From positions 1-35,234 of the forward strand of contig SXPK01000158.1 in assembly GCA_005776365.1 (NCBI GenBank): a DNA stretch of 35,234 bases, given 5' to 3'. Shown here in pieces: positions 12,491 through 23,817 of this stretch (position 1 is the first letter of the stretch; each line of letters opens with the position of its first letter). Both the position numbers and the translations under genes were made by a program. Under the pieces are notes generated by a model, which searched no databases, was not told the origin of the DNA, and was given only the letters and a program-made list of their open reading frames with translations. This DNA comes from Planctomycetia bacterium. GTDB taxonomy: Bacteria; Planctomycetota; UBA1135; UBA2386.

Positions 12491-12837
12491 TACAAGCTCC
12501 CGCTGCGGCTCTATGCGAGACTGGTGACACGGCGCGAGAGGTCAACGTCCGCACGCTGCATCGCCGTCGCCGTGCCTTTCGTTGGTTTGTGTCGCAGGCC
12601 CGTTGCTCAGGCTGGCGGCCGCATTGACGGTGCCTTCGCGAGAGCAGTCCACAGCGAGGCCCGAGCCTGCAATGGCGCGACGCGGGCAGGGCGCGCGCGG
12701 AGCCAGGCGCAATCGCAATATCTTGCCCCACGCAGCGCGCCGTCCCTGCGCAGTTGCCGCTGCAGCGCCTCGCAATGCCTCAGAATCACGGCATCCCCCA
12801 GGGCTGCGCATTGGGCAGTGCTACTATCCCCCGGCCG

Positions 12838-15015
12838 ATGGTGACCCCAGAGCCCTTTCCTGCGCCGGATCCCTTTGTCGGCACGATCCTCAAGGACCTC
12901 TACCGCATCGACCGCCGCATCGGCCGCGGCGGGATGGGCGCGGTCTATCAGGCCACGCAGCTCAATCTCGGTCGCAGCGTCGCAGTCAAGTTCTTGGCGC
13001 CGCTGATGGGCCTTGGGTCCGAGTCCCTGCAGCGCTTCCAACGCGAAGCGATGCTCCTCGGACAACTCAACCACCCCAACATCGTCGGCATCCTCGACTC
13101 GGGAGTGGAGACCTCCGGCGTCAGCTACATGGTGATGGAGTTCTTGAAGGGACAGACGCTGCAACAAGCTGTTCCTTCTGGCAAGGGACTCTCGATCGAG
13201 GCGCTCGTCGATTACTTCGCGCAGATCGCAGGAGCCATCAGTGCCGCGCACCAGCTCCGTCTCGTCCATCGCGACCTCAAGCCTGAGAACATCATCGTCG
13301 CCGAAGTGGTCGGCGGCGGCCACGTGCTCAAGGTGCTCGACTTCGGCATCGCACGCGGGCTCGACGACACCGCCACGCGCCTGACCCTGACGGATGCCGC
13401 TGTCGGAACGCCTGGCTATCTCGCGCCAGAACAACTGCACGACTCAGAATCGCTCGACGAGCGTTGCGACATCTACGCGCTCGGCGCTGTCCTCTACTTC
13501 ATGATCTGTGGCCTTGCGCCGTATCGAGGCAAGACCGTGGGGGCAATCCTGCAAATGCAGATCGAAGGTGTCACGGCGCCGATCGCTTGGGACCAAGTCA
13601 ACGGGCCGCGCGCGCTGGAAGGCGTGATCAAGAAAGCGATCCAACGCAATCCGGACGCACGCTACCAAAGCGTCAATGAGATGCTGCTCGCGTTCTATGG
13701 CGCCTGCGGGATGGAGCCACCAACCGCGCTCACCCGCACGCCGCACGCCACGTCGCGACCCTCTCGGGCGCACCCTGGTCGCCGCCGTCTGCTCTATGCC
13801 TGCACCGCCACAATCGGCCTCTCGCTCGTCAGCGGCACGGCGTGGTTGACCACCCGCGGCGACTCGCAGGCGCGTTCCCCGTGGTCATTCCGCGGCGTCG
13901 ACAACGATTCGATCCGCCTGGGAATGAGCGCCGCCTTCACCGGACCCGCAAAGGAGCTGGGCCGCAACATGCGGCTCGGCATCGAGACCTACTTTCGCTA
14001 CGTGAACGAAGAGCTGGGCGGGGTCGAAGGTCGCAAGCTCAAGCTGTTGGCGTTGGATGACCATTATGAACCTGCGCGAGCAGAGACCAACGCGCGCCAA
14101 CTGCTCGAAACAGACCAGGTGTTTGCACTGGTGGGCAACGTCGGCACTCAGACTGCGGCCGTGACGGTGCCTTATGCCGTGAACAACAAGTTCCTCCTGT
14201 TCGGTGCGCTCTCCGGCGCCGGCATCCTGCGGAAGGACCCTCCGGAGCGCTATGTCTTCAACTACCGGGCGAGCTACGAGCAGGAGACCTCAGCGATGGT
14301 CGGCTACTTCCTTGATGTGCTCAAGCGCCCGGCCGACTCGATCATGGTGTTTGCGCAGGACGACGCTTATGGCGACTCCGCGTTCGAAGGCGTGGCGAGG
14401 ACGCTGCGGCAACGGGTCGGTATCGACAGCAAGAACATCGTGCGCGTCGGCTACGACCGCAACTCGACGCAGGTTGGAGAGGCAGTGCAGAAGACGTTGG
14501 CCCTGCGCGAAAAGGTGAGCGCAATCGTCATCGCCGCAACCTACACCCCGGCGGCAAAGTACATCGCCGACCTGCGCAAAGCGGGAATGGACGCATTGTG
14601 CGCCGTCGTGTCATTCGTCGGCGCCACGCCCCTCGCCGAGGAGTTCATCAACAACCACGGCGCTGAGCTTGCGGACGGAGTCATCGTGACGCAGGTCGTG
14701 CCCCACATTCAATCGAACGCCACAGGCGTGCTGCGCTTCCGCGAACACCTCGCGCGCTACTCACCGAGCGAGTCGAACAGCTTTGTGGCGCTCGAGGGCT
14801 ACGTCGCCGCCGCAGTGCTGGTCGAAGGGATTCGGCGCGCGGGATGGCAACTGGATACCGAGCGCCTGGTCGACGCGATGGAACAGATCCATGGGTTCGA
14901 CCCCGGGTTTGGTGTGGCATTGCAGTATGGACCGTCGCGGCACCAGGGATCCGATCGGGTGTGGGCAACCGTGATGGACCGCACCGCAACGTATCGAGAA
15001 CTGAAGCTCGATTGA
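12838..15015 (+). CDS. Ser/Thr protein kinase – TM – periplasmic branched-chain-amino-acid-type binding protein (Peripla_BP_6-like) fusion
   Basis: Kinase motifs GRGGMGAVYQA, VAVKFL, HRDLKPENI, DFGIA, APEQL; TM 'LLYACTATIGLSLVSGTAWL'; then 'DSIRLGMSAAFTGPAKELGRNMRLGIETYFRYVNEELGGVEGRKLKLLALDDHYEPARAETNARQLL…' typical of LivJ-type receptors. Confidence 0.92.
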   Translation: MVTPEPFPAPDPFVGTILKDLYRIDRRIGRGGMGAVYQATQLNLGRSVAVKFLAPLMGLGSESLQRFQREAMLLGQLNHPNIVGILDSGVETSGVSYMVMEFLKGQTLQQAVPSGKGLSIEALVDYFAQIAGAISAAHQLRLVHRDLKPENIIVAEVVGGGHVLKVLDFGIARGLDDTATRLTLTDAAVGTPGYLAPEQLHDSESLDERCDIYALGAVLYFMICGLAPYRGKTVGAILQMQIEGVTAPIAWDQVNGPRALEGVIKKAIQRNPDARYQSVNEMLLAFYGACGMEPPTALTRTPHATSRPSRAHPGRRRLLYACTATIGLSLVSGTAWLTTRGDSQARSPWSFRGVDNDSIRLGMSAAFTGPAKELGRNMRLGIETYFRYVNEELGGVEGRKLKLLALDDHYEPARAETNARQLLETDQVFALVGNVGTQTAAVTVPYAVNNKFLLFGALSGAGILRKDPPERYVFNYRASYEQETSAMVGYFLDVLKRPADSIMVFAQDDAYGDSAFEGVARTLRQRVGIDSKNIVRVGYDRNSTQVGEAVQKTLALREKVSAIVIAATYTPAAKYIADLRKAGMDALCAVVSFVGATPLAEEFINNHGAELADGVIVTQVVPHIQSNATGVLRFREHLARYSPSESNSFVALEGYVAAAVLVEGIRRAGWQLDTERLVDAMEQIHGFDPGFGVALQYGPSRHQGSDRVWATVMDRTATYRELKLD

Positions 15016-15510: not shown

Positions 15511-18500
15511 CTACTTCGGCCGCACGATCCCCCACTGACCGCCGTCTTCCTGGTCCCAAAAGACCATCAGCGCCCCCTGGGTTTCCTTGCCCGCCGGGAT
15601 CCACGTCGCACAGCCAACTCCACCCACAGCTCCTGGCAGCGGCGCGTGCGCGATGCAACTGAGGTCGGTGGACGAGAAAGCCAAGAGCCCAACTTCCGAC
15701 GACTCGCCAAATAGCGTCGCGATGAGGTCACGCTGCCCGTCGCCATCGAAATCGTCGGCGAGGATCAGTGACAGCCAGGGTGTCAACGACTCCTCGGCTG
15801 CAAGGGTCACGTCGAGTTCGCGGCGCAGCAGCAATTGCACAGACTGTCCAATGACCCCGTAGCGCTCGATTCCAGAAAAGCCGTCCTGCCAAGCCCCGGA
15901 GCGACACACGACCATGTCGACGCCGCCCTGACGAGCGCGCGACGGCAGCAAGGCTGCCTGGCTCAGAGAACTGACAACCAAGTCCTCGGAACGCGAGCCG
16001 CCAAGCCCGCCGGTCCAGGCCGAGTATGCGTATGCGTCGCACCAGCCTCGTTCCGTGCCATCCCAAGCTTCGCGCAACAACAACTCGCTGGGCCCGCCGC
16101 CCGTTGCGGCCGCAGCAATGCAGGCGAGTTGACCGAGGTTGCGCGTCCCCTCGATGGTCATCAACTCCCGACCGTCGAGGCCGCTTACAACGCACACGCG
16201 GCCGGCCTTGGGCAAGTCGCGCCTGGGCCACCAGCAATACGCAGTGCAAGCGAGGTCTTCGACGCCATCGTCGTTCCAGTCGCCGCATGCAATCGCCTGG
16301 CCGCAACAGTCGTCGTGGAACGGACTGTCCGAGACGCGATTTGGCCAAAGCCAGACTGGCCCATCTTCGCGAGCCGACAACCGCGCGACCGAACCACTCT
16401 CCGGCGAACCCAGCCGCTGGCTCGAAGGATCGCTGAGGACCATCTCCGGCCAGCCGTCGCCGTCGACGTCCGCGATCGACGTCATCATTCCGCCAAATCC
16501 CTGGCCGTCGTTTCGATTCTTGCGGGAGTGCATCACGCCTGGCGCAACCGCGCGTAGCACGCGCAGCGACGGCCAGTCGAGCACGAGGACTCTCCCTTCT
16601 TCCTGGAACAACCCGGCTGACCAAAGTTCGACGGTCTTGTCGGGACCAGATCGCGCGACCATCGAACCGACCCCAGACAGCCCGTCGTCCGACAGCGGTT
16701 GCACGCTCCACTTCTGCACGTGGCGCAACGGCGACGACGCGGAACTGCTCGGCAGCTTTGCCCGATAGCCCTCGTCCGCGACGATTGCGAAGCACGGCGG
16801 CTCGTCCTTCCAATGTCCGCCAAACTGCATGCCGGTGAGCATCCTCGCCAAAGCCAACGACGTGCTCGCGTCCGCCGCCGACGAGAATGTGGCTCGCAAC
16901 TCGAGCCATCGTGCAGGGCGATCGGATCGCAATGCGACGCGTCGCTCCAGTTGTCCATCCTCTCGCAGCGGCCATTCTTGCGGCTCCTGGCCTTCGAACC
17001 TGACGTCTACTTGGAGTTGGCCGCCATCGCGCCGGTCCCCGCGCGCCAACACGACCGCCGAGCGCATGCCGCGGTCGAAGGGGATGCGAAGTCGCAGATG
17101 CGAAGGCCTATTTGCCGAAGCCGAAACCAATGCGCAGGGTGTCTGCCGCAAGCCGAAACCGAACACCTCTATTCCTGGCACGCCGAGCCATGTCTCCGCG
17201 TCCGTCTCGAACTCGATGTCTGCACTTCTGGGCGACATCACTGTGCTCCAAGTGCGTCGGTAGGTGCCGTCGATGTCGGACATCCAGGCCGGCAGCATTT
17301 GGACGTCGACCGCGCCGATGTTGAGATCGATCCTCTGAATCTCCTCCCGGCCCTTGCCGTCGACCACGCGCAATTCGTGGCGCCCAGGCGGCAAGCATGC
17401 ATGGATTGACGCAGGCCCGAGTATGTCGATGGGCGTGCCGTTTACGAATCGGCGATCCGTCCCGACGTCAGGCGACATCTGTGCCCACGAATGCCCTGTC
17501 GAGAACAGGATCGGCGCCGTTCCTGATCGCGCTCCAGGCACACGTGACTCGATGTGCGTGCTGAAGCAGACCCATTGCACACCGTCGACAGCCTTGACTT
17601 CGAAAGTTGCTTCGGTCTCGGCAACGCGATCGCTCACGAGCTTTGCCGTGTGCGCGCCGCATGGCAGCCACAAGGGATCGAACAACCACGCATCTTCTGC
17701 GCCGTCGACGCGAACCGTCGCGTCCGCTGCGTCGCACGTCGCGGCGAACTGGACAAATCTTCCGCGCGGCCACTGATCCCACGCGACGAGTGCGAATGCG
17801 CCGAACGCCGCCGCGGCGACCATGGCCAGCCGCCGGCGGTCGCGCAGAGCCAGCGAGAGCGCGTTCGGGCGTCGTGCGCGCAGGACGCCGTCGCCCGCAG
17901 CGGCGCGAAGGTCTGCGGCGAGGTCCGCCGCGGTCGCGTAGCGCCGATCCGGTCGTGGATCGAGGCAGGAGTAGAGGATCGCTTGCGCCGAGGCGGGCAG
18001 CGCGAGGCTCGCTTTGCTGTCGAGCAAGAAGGCGCGCGAACCGCTCTTCATGACCTCACCTATCTCCTGCCGGAGTTCGGTTCCAGTCAGCGCGCGATAC
18101 AGCAACAGGCCAACGGCGTAGATGTCGGCGCGGCGGTCCACGGCGCCCGGATCGCGGCCCAATTGCTCGGGCGCCATATAGGCGAGCGTGCCCATCGCGA
18201 GTCCCGAATGCGTGAAAGACGCCTTGTTGCGCAAGTCGCGCGCGAGGCCAAAGTCGATCAAGACCGGCGACAGGTCGTCGCGCACCAGGATGTTCGCGGG
18301 CTTCACGTCGCGGTGCACGACGCCTTGTTCGTGCGCGGCGTGCAGACCCTCTGCCACCTCCGCCAACATGCGCAACATCCGTCGCTGGTAGCGCGTCGAG
18401 TTGCAGATGCTCTCGCGACGCTCGCGGTGCCCATCGAGGTCGATCTCGCGCAACAACATCGACAGCGCCGAAAGGTTGTCGAGATCCTTCTGCGTCGGCG

Positions 18501-18948
18501 CCGCTGCCTTGGCCAGCAACACCTCCAACTCGATTCCGACGATGCGCTCCATCACCAGCACCCCCGTGCCGTTGTCGAGCACCGCGTGGTCGCGATAGCG
18601 CACGATGGACTTGTGATCCAGCGTCTGCAGCAATCGACATTCTTGCTCGAAGCGCTCGCCCGTGCTCTGCGCCACAGCCGCAACGAGCTTGACCGCAACC
18701 AACGATCCGTCTGCCGCCGTGCCTGCGTAGGTCACTCCCATTCCGCCGGCACCGAGCATCCGCTGGAGCGTGCAGCCACGGAGCGTCGAGCCCTCCAAAC
18801 CAAACTGCTCGGAACGCGCAGCGCTCCGCTTGGTCAACAGGTCTGCCAGCGCTGCGAGCGGATCGCTCGCGTCGTCAATGCGCTGGTCCCACTGGCGCAG
18901 TACTTCGCCATCCGTGGACCCGGCTGAGCTCTCCTCGTTCGAAGTCAT
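15511..18948 (-). CDS. Ser/Thr protein kinase – TM – extracytoplasmic FG-GAP/VCBS-repeat protein
   Basis: Motifs [38 protein letters not shown] '[16 protein letters not shown]'; Ca-binding-like [18 protein letters not shown] and DFDGDGQRD. Confidence 0.92.
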
Positions 18949-18973: not shown

Positions 18974-19002
18974 TGCCGGGACAGTTAGCAACCGTCCCGG
19001 CA
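18974..19002 (-). terminator. Hairpin 3' of the candidate selenoprotein gene (terminator candidate)
   Basis: Perfect 9-bp inverted repeat TGCCGGGAC – 11 nt – GTCCCGGCA, 12 nt beyond the stop at 19015 and before the next gene (18948). No clear U-tract. Confidence 0.5.
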
Positions 19003-19014
19003 CGAAGGTTGGCG

Positions 19015-19956
19015 CTACTTGCTGCCGCCCTTGCTCTGCTCCAGCATCGTCCGAAGGCGATTCTTCATCGACTCGGGCGCGGGTTGCTTGTCGAGCACGT
19101 CGAACGCGCGTTGGCCAAGCTCGCCGTCGCCGTTCTTGGCGGCCCAGGTCAGGGTCATTTGCCAGAAGAACGCCTCCTGGTCCTTCGGCGGAGACTTCCC
19201 GGCCTTGGCCATCGCCGCAATGCGGTTGGACGTCTCTTCTTGGCCGAGCTCGCGAACCTTGCCACGCAAGTCGCGAATCTCGGCGCCGAATAGATACTGC
19301 TCAAGCGCAGCGAGATCGTCCTTGCCGAGTTCGAGCTTCGCGGCGCGCTCCTTGGCGTCCTGCGCCGCGACGCACTGCAGATCCATCTCGACGAAGAGCA
19401 GGTCACGTTCGAGCTTGGCAACGTCGGCTGACTTGCTGGCGTCGGCGCGCAGAGAAGCGACCTTGGCGCGCAACTCGAACAGCGACTTCAGCCGCGCAGC
19501 ATTGGTCGTGAACGCCTCCACCGTGCGGGCGGACTGACGAACGACCACGTTGCCGTCCGCGTCCATGAAGCAAAGGCTCGGGAAGCCGCCGAAGCCCTTC
19601 TCCTGCAGCAGCTTTGGATACGGCTCGTCGTCGACGCGCGACGTGTTGTGCAAGAAGAGCACGACTGTGTCAGCGAAGGCCTTGAAGTCCGGTGCGGAGA
19701 GCGGACCGCTCTCCAGTGAGTCACACGGGCCTCAATGCGCGTAGCTACGCGTGAAGTAGGCAAAGATCGGCTTGCCGGTCTTCTTCGCTTCGGCGCGCGC
19801 GGCGTCGAAGTCGACGACCCATGGGGCCTGGTGGAAGACGGTCTTGGCGAGCTTCTCCTTGCGCAGCTCGACGAGCTGTTCTTGGGATTTGTTCTGCGCC
19901 GGCAGCAACGCGCCGAGCGCGAGCAACACGAAGGTGGAACGGGCGAGCAGGTTCAT
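19015..19956 (-). CDS. Thioredoxin-fold exported protein, candidate selenoprotein (Sec at codon 75, UGPC motif)
   Basis: ORF-track pieces 19732..20280 (from internal ATG 19956, MNLLARSTFVLLALGALLPAQ signal peptide) and 19015..19662 share one frame. The only interruption is TGA at 19734-19732: …GKPIFAYFTRSYAH-[TGA]-GPCDSLESGPLSAPDFKAFADTVVLFLHNTSRVDDEPYPKLLQEKGFGGFPSLCFMDADG…. Confidence 0.82.
19696..19714 (-). promoter_or_regulatory. Candidate bacterial SECIS hairpin
   Basis: On the minus strand GGAGAGCGGTCCGCTCTCC: 7-8 bp perfect stem with a G(GU)C-type apical loop, starting 17 nt after the UGA at 19734-19732. Confidence 0.7.
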
Positions 19957-20315
19957 CAGGATCTCTCGATGCCGCTTCGAAGCGAAGCGGGACGGAGAGC
20001 GTCCGCGGCGTGCGAACTGGGCGCAACCTCGGAGGGAGAAATGGCGGCCGCAGGGCTCGGCCGCTGGTGCGCACTGCTGCCAAATCGTTACGCCTCGCGA
20101 TGCGAGGCCGGATGAGTGGACTAGGGGGGGCCCGCGGAGATGGCCCGCATGCGGTGCCTTCTCAAGGCAGAGGCGAGGGAGCGGCCTCGTTGCCGCATTC
20201 CAAGATGCCGCCAGGCGCGCGCAACTCGGCTCGCGGACTTTGGAGCTAGCGAAGCTGGCAAGCGATCGCGCGGACCGCATTTGCTCCTACCCGCAGACCG
20301 CCGGCTGCCGCGATC

Positions 20316-20643: not shown

Positions 20644-23600
20644 TCACTCCACCCGCCGCGCCGGCCGGAACCCAATCGTGTGACCAGACACTTGCGGCGC
20701 GGCGCCGTCGCGCGAGGTCACGCGCACGGTTGCAATCGTGTTGTCGAAGCTGCCGCCGCGGCTGGTGCGCTGCGGGAGGCCTTCGGCCGGCTGGAAGGGA
20801 TCGACTTCCGCGTGCGTCTCGTATGCATGCGTGTAGTGACCGTCGAGGCACCATTCCCACAGATTGCCGAGCATCTCGTGGAAGCCGAAGGGATTGGGCG
20901 GCAGCGCGCCGATCGGGCACGTTGCATTCCAACCGTCGTCGTAGGTCGGCCAATCCGCGATCGACGGCCAGGTCGCGCCGTGCTTCGCCGCGCTGCGGTC
21001 CGCGATGTTGAACTTGCCCACGAGGTCCGCCTGCTGGTCCGCGATGCTCCAACGCGCCGTCGTGCCACCGCGCGCCGCTCGTTCCCATTGCGCTTCGGTT
21101 GGCAACGACAGACCCGCGCGGCGACAGAACCGATCCGCGTCAAACCACGACACCTGCTCGACTGGATGCAACTCGCTCGCGATCCAATGGAGCCGCAAGG
21201 TGTAGGCGCTGGGTTGCGTGCCCATCAGGCGCTGCCACTGCGGCTGCGTGACTTCGTGCTTCGCCAAGAAGTAGGGGGAAACGCGAACCTCGTGCGGCGG
21301 CTCCTCGACCAACCTGGCCTCTGGGTCGAAAGCAACCGAGTCACGATCACGCGACGCGCCCATTCGGAACGACCCACCTGGCACCAGCACGAACACGATT
21401 GCCGATTCTGAGCCAAGGACGAGCTTGCCAGAGCCATCGCGAACAGGAGCAACGCCGCTGCACAGGCACGCGAACTCCCACAGACCGGACTGCGGATCAG
21501 CGCCGAGCGGCATCAGCCCTGGCTGCGGCAGGAGCTTCAGTTCCGGGTAGGCGCGTGTGAGTTCTGGAGCCGCTGCGGCCCATGCCAAGAAGGCGCCACC
21601 GCCCTCTGCGAACGATGCTTGCATGGTGCGCGCGAAGCGAAGGCGCCGCGCGACGCCCCATCCGGTCGCTGGATCGGCTCCCGCGCTCGCGTCGAGATGC
21701 ACGACGCGCAACCGTTCGAGGTCTCGGATCAGCGCCTCGAGCTGCGCGCTCCACCACGCGCTCGCGCGGTCGTCCGGCGCAAAGTTCCAGGTGCGGCGCA
21801 CGTCGACCTCTGCATCGAGACGAGCTCGCTCGGCTCGGAGCGCACCAATCGCATTGCCGGCCTCGGTGATGCCTGCATCCGACTGCGCGCGCGCAATGGC
21901 CTGACGCAGTCGCGTGCCGTCGATCGCAACAATGCCCGGCGCTGCTGCAGCCTTCGTCTCCGCGAGCGCCATCTCACGCGTCGCCGCAGCGTCGTCGCCG
22001 CACGCGAACTCGGCCCAGGCGAGGGCTTCGTGCAGAACCGAGTGCGAAATGGGAGGCTGCGAATCTTTGAGCAGGGCGCGTAGCGCATCGCGTCCCTTGC
22101 GCTCGCGACCGAACTCCGTGCGCTCGGGCCAACTCCACGATCGCGCAAGGTCGAAGCGCGCTCTGCGACTCGAGGGGAGCGGCTGCTCTGACGTCGGTTC
22201 CATCGTTGCGGACACAACGACTTCGCGCCCGCCGAGCTGCATCGCCCGCGTCGCCAAGGCTCGTTCTAGCGACGCCAACTCTGCCTCAACCTTCGCCAAG
22301 CGCTCGGCGCTCGGGTGCGAAGCGCGATCCGCTGCTCGTTCCGCCTCGGTGCTCGGCCTCGCTTGCAAGGCCAGCGCGGCGAGCTGTGCGTAATGGCCAG
22401 GCAACTCATCGACGAGCCGCTGTGCGCTGTCGGTCCATCTTGCCAGGTCTGGGATGCGATCTTGATACGGCGGCCACAGCGACGCCTCCTCTCTCAGCAG
22501 CACATCGAGGTCCTGTCGCGCGGCGAGTCGAAGCACGTCGCGACGCTGCGCGCCAGCCTCTTCTGCTTGCTCGGACGCGAGCATGGCATAGCGAAGCGAG
22601 ACGCCAACGCCAACGAACGCAGTCATCATGACGACCACAGCCGCAACGACCTGAAGGCGATGCCTGCGGACATACTTCCGCATCGAGTAGGCCATCGACG
22701 GCGGCCTGGCGCTGACCTCGTCGTCCGCAAGGTGCCGCTCCACGTCGGCAGCCAGCTCAGCGGCCGATGCATAGCGAAGTTCGGGATCGCGCTCCGTTGC
22801 CTTCTGCACGATCCAGTCGAGATCACCGCGCAAGGCGCGCTGCCAGGTTCGTTCTTGAGCGCCTTCCAGAACCGTCGCCGCGCTCGGTTTGCCGATGTCG
22901 AGATCGCGGATCCGCTCGCGAACATCCTGCGCACCACGAGTGCCCGCGAGCGCCACCGCGTGCGGGCCCTTGCCGGTCAACATCTCGTAGAGGACCGCGC
23001 CGAGCGAGAACACGTCCGCCCGCGTGTCGATCGCCTCGAAGTCACCGCGCAACTGTTCTGGGGACATGTAGCGCGGGGTCCCGAGCATCATCCCGGTCTC
23101 CGTCAGCCCCGCCGAATCGTCGCTCTGCTCCATCGCGCAGGCGATGCCGAAGTCGATCAGTTTGGGCCTTGGATCCTTGGCTCCGCCACAAACCAGCACG
23201 TTGCTCGGCTTGATGTCGCGATGCAGCACGCCTTTTTGATGCGCGTGGTGCACGCCATGGCACACCGCGCAGAACAACGCCAGCCGCGAACGCCGCGAAA
23301 GGCGATGCTGCTTGCAGAACTCGACGATCGGCAGGCCCTCGACCAGCTCCATCGAGAACCATGGCTTGCCCAGGTCAGTCGTCCCCGCATCGAAAACGCG
23401 CGCGATCGCATCGTGGTTCATGCGTGCCAGCGCGTCGCGCTCGCGCGAGAACCGCCGCAGAATCGATCGCGTGTCCATGCCGAGCTTCAACACCTTGACT
23501 GCGACCTCGCGCGGCAGCCCGCCGACCTCCACGGCGCGATACACTTCGCCAAACCCACCGCGTCCGAGCAGCGCCAGGATCCGATACGGACCAACGCGCT

Positions 23601-23817
23601 CCGGCTGCGCCTCGTCGGAGCTCGACACGGTCGGATAGCGCGCAACGAACTCGCGGATGCCGCTCACTTGATCGGGATACCTGCGTTCGATCGTCGCAAC
23701 GGCGAGCATTCTTTGTTTGGCCCCGGTGTTGCGGAACCACGCTGCTTCCAACTCCGACAACAGATCCTCGGGCAGATCCACTTTCTCGGGCACAGGGGTC
23801 GCGTCTTTGCTGCTCAT
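20644..23817 (-). CDS. Ser/Thr protein kinase – TM – formylglycine-generating-enzyme/sulfatase-modifying-factor (FGE) domain protein
   Basis: Motifs GRGGFGEVYRA, VAVKVL, HRDIKPSNV, DFGIA, SPEQL; TM 'LQVVAAVVVMMTAFVGVGVSL'; C-terminal 'PHEVRVSPYFLAKHEVTQPQWQRLMG…LPTEAQWERAARGG…NPFGFHEMLGNLWEWCLDG…RGGSFDN…GFRPARR'. Confidence 0.93.
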   Translation of the reverse strand: MSSKDATPVPEKVDLPEDLLSELEAAWFRNTGAKQRMLAVATIERRYPDQVSGIREFVARYPTVSSSDEAQPERVGPYRILALLGRGGFGEVYRAVEVGGLPREVAVKVLKLGMDTRSILRRFSRERDALARMNHDAIARVFDAGTTDLGKPWFSMELVEGLPIVEFCKQHRLSRRSRLALFCAVCHGVHHAHQKGVLHRDIKPSNVLVCGGAKDPRPKLIDFGIACAMEQSDDSAGLTETGMMLGTPRYMSPEQLRGDFEAIDTRADVFSLGAVLYEMLTGKGPHAVALAGTRGAQDVRERIRDLDIGKPSAATVLEGAQERTWQRALRGDLDWIVQKATERDPELRYASAAELAADVERHLADDEVSARPPSMAYSMRKYVRRHRLQVVAAVVVMMTAFVGVGVSLRYAMLASEQAEEAGAQRRDVLRLAARQDLDVLLREEASLWPPYQDRIPDLARWTDSAQRLVDELPGHYAQLAALALQARPSTEAERAADRASHPSAERLAKVEAELASLERALATRAMQLGGREVVVSATMEPTSEQPLPSSRRARFDLARSWSWPERTEFGRERKGRDALRALLKDSQPPISHSVLHEALAWAEFACGDDAAATREMALAETKAAAAPGIVAIDGTRLRQAIARAQSDAGITEAGNAIGALRAERARLDAEVDVRRTWNFAPDDRASAWWSAQLEALIRDLERLRVVHLDASAGADPATGWGVARRLRFARTMQASFAEGGGAFLAWAAAAPELTRAYPELKLLPQPGLMPLGADPQSGLWEFACLCSGVAPVRDGSGKLVLGSESAIVFVLVPGGSFRMGASRDRDSVAFDPEARLVEEPPHEVRVSPYFLAKHEVTQPQWQRLMGTQPSAYTLRLHWIASELHPVEQVSWFDADRFCRRAGLSLPTEAQWERAARGGTTARWSIADQQADLVGKFNIADRSAAKHGATWPSIADWPTYDDGWNATCPIGALPPNPFGFHEMLGNLWEWCLDGHYTHAYETHAEVDPFQPAEGLPQRTSRGGSFDNTIATVRVTSRDGAAPQVSGHTIGFRPARRVE

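Follow-up and report, generated by a model that had tools for sequence, protein, structure and literature searches.

The window, the whole 35,234-nucleotide stretch of planctomycete DNA analyzed here, carries a minus-strand gene that is open over its full length apart from one TGA (Table 1). Translation of positions 19956 to 19015 gave a 313-residue product whose sole interruption is that TGA, at residue 75, followed by Gly-Pro-Cys. The preliminary description had proposed this read-through product and had placed the TGA at the first Cys position of a CxxC-type motif; translation confirms both, and the motif reads U-G-P-C. The start at 20280 in its list of open reading frames is mechanical only, and the conserved start is the ATG at 19956, from which the homologs align and which opens the predicted signal peptide. 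The downstream open reading frame had been described as having no good start of its own, and it does begin at an internal GTG with no conserved start. Protein homology runs on both sides of the in-frame UGA. The SECIS hairpin, the spread of the Sec family through the phylum, the Cys paralog of this genome, and the C-terminal helical domain, all treated below, are additions to the preliminary description. The gene stands alone, and directly past its stop lies an inverted repeat that is terminator-like, without a T run.

Table 1. Features of the candidate selenoprotein locus in the window.
Feature	Position	Strand	Evidence
Predicted selenoprotein gene, 313 codons plus TAG stop, ATG at 19956	19015..19956	minus	Full-length homolog alignment
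Predicted signal peptide, residues 1-21 (MNLLARSTFVLLALGALLPAQ)	19894..19956	minus	Read from the sequence; N termini of homologs
Thioredoxin-like domain, about residues 46-143 (UGPC; cis-Pro-like GFP at 124-126)	19528..19821	minus	PF13899; AlphaFold2
In-frame UGA, almost certainly read as Sec, residue 75 of UGPC	19732..19734	minus	Codon column of 89 homologs
bSECIS hairpin UGGAGAGCG-GUC-CGCUCUCCG	19695..19715	minus	Folding energy, covariation, synonymous-codon null
C-terminal alpha-helical repeat domain, about residues 146-313	19018..19521	minus	AlphaFold2 helices; whole-chain YbbN match
Perfect 8-bp inverted repeat GCCGGGAC...GTCCCGGC	18976..19002	minus	Read from the sequence

Homologs were sought in 154 genomes of the same order, and relatives were found in 66 of them. 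The codon at the aligned column was read in 89 distinct genes of the order; 68 have TGA, 15 have a Cys codon (TGC or TGT), and 6 have another codon (TGG, TAC, AGC, GAA, and AAC twice). Column 75, which the preliminary description had proposed to examine for Cys or Sec, is mostly TGA or Cys. Outside the order, TGA occupies the column in 22 of the 22 matches read, which are among the best-scoring matches and in which two loci recur. An even phylum-wide sample gave a match in 94 of 395 genomes, nearly all with one internal TGA. The earlier contention that the TGA is placed beyond chance is borne out by the column itself, which holds TGA in 68 of 89 genes within the order and in all 22 outside it.

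A single TGA in an otherwise open frame might also be a nonsense mutation in an ordinary CGPC thioredoxin-like gene, and the same genome does contain a Cys paralog (L046, CGPC, codon TGC). This pseudogene reading is refuted by the homologs: the same TGA occurs in 68 of them, at identities as low as about 30%, the sequence is conserved before and after it, and covariation of the SECIS element is seen in the TGA forms only. We consider it extremely improbable. An error of sequencing or assembly at 19732-19734 has a negligible probability. The window does come from a fragmented metagenome assembly, but the same TGA recurs across dozens of independently assembled genomes, which rules out a read error, and a matching hairpin is present.

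All four Sec genes named in the preliminary description, selA, selB, selC, and selD, are present in the genome, with selA and selB partial at contig ends of the 3.66 Mb assembly (283 contigs, 65% complete). The tRNA-Sec scored 77.2 bits and has the anticodon TCA (tRNA-SeC according to ARAGORN). SelB (156 bits) is a fragment truncated at its 5' end where the contig starts, and SelA (129 bits) is represented by its C-terminal part at a contig start, where it adjoins SelD (346 bits). SelD has one in-frame TGA (L014:542-544), which sits in SSSGUAAK ahead of a GC-rich stretch and agrees with the UxxK motif given for SelD (PMC13188914); judged from its sequence, the SelD of this genome is probably a selenoprotein itself. 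Across the order, 144 of the 154 genomes have a tRNA-Sec and 146 have SelA, so Sec decoding characterizes the order as a whole. None of the three outcomes that the preliminary description listed as refuting a selenoprotein occurs.

Readthrough would also be obtained if TGA were reassigned genome-wide, or if it were read nonspecifically as Trp, Gly, or another residue in place of Sec, and in one homolog (L064) the column reads TGG. TGA still ends 28 of the 58 Sec genes whose true stop lies in the fetched DNA, so it has not been reassigned. The usual alternative residue is Cys, and a dedicated tRNA-Sec, SelA, SelB, and SelD are present. Code reassignment was rejected on the TGA stops, the Cys alternatives, and the dedicated machinery, and we regard this whole class of explanation as very improbable.

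The hairpin begins 16 nt past the UGA, and 25 nt lie between the UGA and the loop. The stem is 8-9 bp, the apical loop is 3 nt (GUC) with GU first, and the folding energy is -14.2 kcal/mol (z = -3.6). The structure agrees with every rule of the bSECIS model given in PMC13188914. Conservation was compared to a null in which codons were redrawn among synonyms in 500 shuffles, with seven set inner pairs scored per gene. In the 68 Sec genes, the inner pairs are formed in 93.5% of cells compared to a null mean of 55% (maximum 62%), all seven are paired in 73.5% compared to 2.9%, and 84% carry the GU loop compared to 16%. In the 15 Cys homologs, the pairs are formed in 53% compared to 49% and the GU loop in 0%, both at the null level. 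Compensatory pair types were found at positions 20-38 (G-C, C-G, and T-A), at 23-35 and 25-33 (G-C and A-T), and at 26-32 (C-G, T-A, and G-C). The loop GU stays while the encoded residues vary (ESG, ESR, ENR, and ESS), and selection therefore acts on the RNA. Plain folding energy measured against synonymous shuffles sets the Sec genes clearly apart from other intervals of the same genes. It separates Sec genes from Cys homologs weakly, whereas the position-specific pair count separates them clearly.

In about half of the genes outside the order the hairpin lies in a second register, two bases away from the first, and 19 of 20 genes there have at least six of the seven pairs in one of the two registers. 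Five of the 68 Sec genes misfit the common hairpin registers; by eye, some of their stems are shifted further. With its two registers and its retained loop, the SECIS of this family is unusually clear. L064 (41-43, on contig C69 of genome G106), which has TGG (Trp) at the Sec column, yet carries a perfect SECIS with a GU loop, and its TGG is either a sequencing error or a very recent loss of Sec.

Most homologs share an N-terminal hydrophobic segment with AQ at its end. Residues 46-133 match PF13899 (Thioredoxin_7) with 33.9 bits, above the gathering cutoff of 27, and 41 of 43 family members match this model at E ≤ 0.001. PF13098 gives 16.3 bits, below its cutoff of 27, and is matched by 17 of 43 relatives at E ≤ 0.001. 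Residues W46, Y67, F68, R70, S71, U/C75, C78, E82, F125, P126, and G135 are invariant in the 43 sequences. In the AlphaFold2 model, which is confident (pLDDT 94.3), a series of helices comes after a thioredoxin fold. Profile comparison gave DsbH, a Bacteroides disulfide isomerase, and DsbD-gamma as solved relatives; by fold, YbbN ranks first on the whole chain, and DsbH and DsbD-gamma are next.

The best solved relative by sequence profile is Chlamydia DsbH (PDB 2ju5; NF043050; E = 5e-8), which is described as a disulfide reductase and has the same thioredoxin fold (rmsd 2.4 Å). DsbH is a Cys protein of about 150 residues with no helical C-terminal domain, whereas the window protein has Sec and the helical domain, and it scores 26.9 bits against the NF043050 cutoff of 190. 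The chaperedoxin YbbN/CnoX (PDB 3qou), in which a thioredoxin domain is joined to a C-terminal helical repeat domain, may share this architecture with the window protein. YbbN is the top Foldseek match (E = 8e-5), with a whole-chain TM-score of 0.24-0.27 (rmsd 21 Å over the chain) that is low because the domains are oriented differently. YbbN/CnoX is cytoplasmic, whereas the window protein has a predicted signal peptide and Sec.

The sequence shows the conservation of the UGA, the Sec machinery, the covarying SECIS, the Cys homologs, and the domain fold. Sec insertion itself is inferred, and the TGA at 19734-19732 almost certainly encodes selenocysteine. The locus as a whole is best explained by an exported selenoprotein with a Sec75/Cys78 redox center and a thiol role in the envelope, a reading to which we assign a probability of roughly 0.9. 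SelB with Sec-tRNA-Sec would bind the hairpin and insert Sec at residue 75, and the predicted signal peptide would direct export. Sec75 would be the attacking selenolate and Cys78 the resolving residue of the redox center in the thioredoxin-like domain. Oxidized thiols of envelope proteins would be reduced or isomerized, and the client proteins may be held partly by the C-terminal helical domain. Recycling would most likely occur via a DsbD-type reductase, and a DsbD-type protein is encoded in the genome. The protein is probably an envelope thiol-disulfide oxidoreductase; the chaperedoxin-like detail is tentative.

The protein could instead be a true selenoprotein with another job, such as a peroxidase, a methionine-sulfoxide-type reductase, or a deliverer of electrons to one partner. 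Sec is often used in peroxide chemistry, the YFxRS segment before the Sec is invariant in the family and differs from DsbH, and the role is fixed by no operon partner. Against this, dithiol reductases are built in this way, on a Thioredoxin_7 or DsbH fold that carries UxxC and a cis-Pro-like FP, and we judge a different job to be unlikely.

We file these proteins as a new selenoprotein family within the known UxxC thioredoxin-fold selenoproteins. The thiol:disulfide interchange selenoprotein (PF13098) and other UxxC thioredoxin-like entries of the 2026 prokaryotic selenoprotein inventory (PMC13188914) share UxxC in a thioredoxin fold with the family, and the inventory has no PF13899 UxxC entry. 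The Trx7/PDZ (seleno)protein NF041199 is also a Thioredoxin_7-type selenoprotein, but its family has a CxxU motif and a PDZ domain (PMC13188914, PMC9312934) where the window protein has UxxC, and the window protein is a partial match at 19.6 bits compared to a cutoff of 300. The VPGUxxT thioredoxin-like (seleno)protein NF041383 (type 2) likewise is thioredoxin-like with Sec; its motif is VPGUxxT compared to UxPC in the window family (SYAHUGPC in the window protein), which scores 25.8 bits against a cutoff of 275. The GOS_C (NF045500) and HUIPC (NF047660) models gave no hit to any family member at E ≤ 0.01, and no model in NCBIfam 20.0 covers the family, the weak matches falling far under their cutoffs. 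No published description of the family was found in the main text of open papers. The family is a large addition for a phylum with sparsely described selenoproteomes, and standard gene callers would cut every Sec member into two false genes.

A tree of the family built with the Sec column masked nests Cys genes in Sec clades, with the well-supported sister pairs L035/L078 and L029/L071, and needs several Sec/Cys state changes. Sec-to-Cys would be the simpler reading of their direction. The Cys paralog of the window's own genome (G000) is probably one gene split over two contigs, with L046 at the end of C261 and L047 at the start of C251. A contig scan with a Cys-demanding peptide pattern found five Cys homologs, each in the record of a planctomycete or of an unnamed bacterium, and the plasmid records searched contained no relative. 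Asn, Glu, Ser, or Tyr replaces Sec in L045, L050, L051, L053 (357-1784), and L054, and some of these also lack the second Cys. These divergent paralogs are possibly redox-dead members, and given the few that have lost active-site residues, part of the superfamily may have a nonredox role. One genome, G139, has seven family matches (contigs C77, C168, C124, C10, C126, and C213), two of them in tandem on C77.

A broader proposal, which is speculative and somewhat doubtful, is that these proteins are secreted, selenium-dependent "chaperedoxins" that form one family throughout the planctomycete phylum. Such proteins would combine a Sec thioredoxin domain with client-binding helical repeats, would have expanded into paralogs with up to seven matches per genome, would have switched repeatedly among Sec, Cys, and redox-dead forms, and would maintain envelope proteins in a reduced or folded state. 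With its many paralogs per genome, its Sec and Cys forms that occur naturally side by side in one genome, and its repeated switches, the family is well suited to studying why a bacterium would use extracytoplasmic Sec.

In the window, the gene is surrounded by genes for serine/threonine kinases and a transporter. No conserved partner gene was found in the homologous loci examined, where the neighbors vary from genome to genome, and the absence of a conserved neighbor means that the surroundings indicate no substrate or donor. Two large kinases flank the gene (20647-23817 and 15514-18948, both on the minus strand); one of them carries an FGE-sulfatase domain at its C terminus, and the other has weak FG-GAP repeats. 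A further serine/threonine kinase at 12754-15012 on the plus strand is fused to a Peripla_BP_6 ligand-binding domain, and its product resembles a receptor kinase whose sensor is of the amino-acid type.
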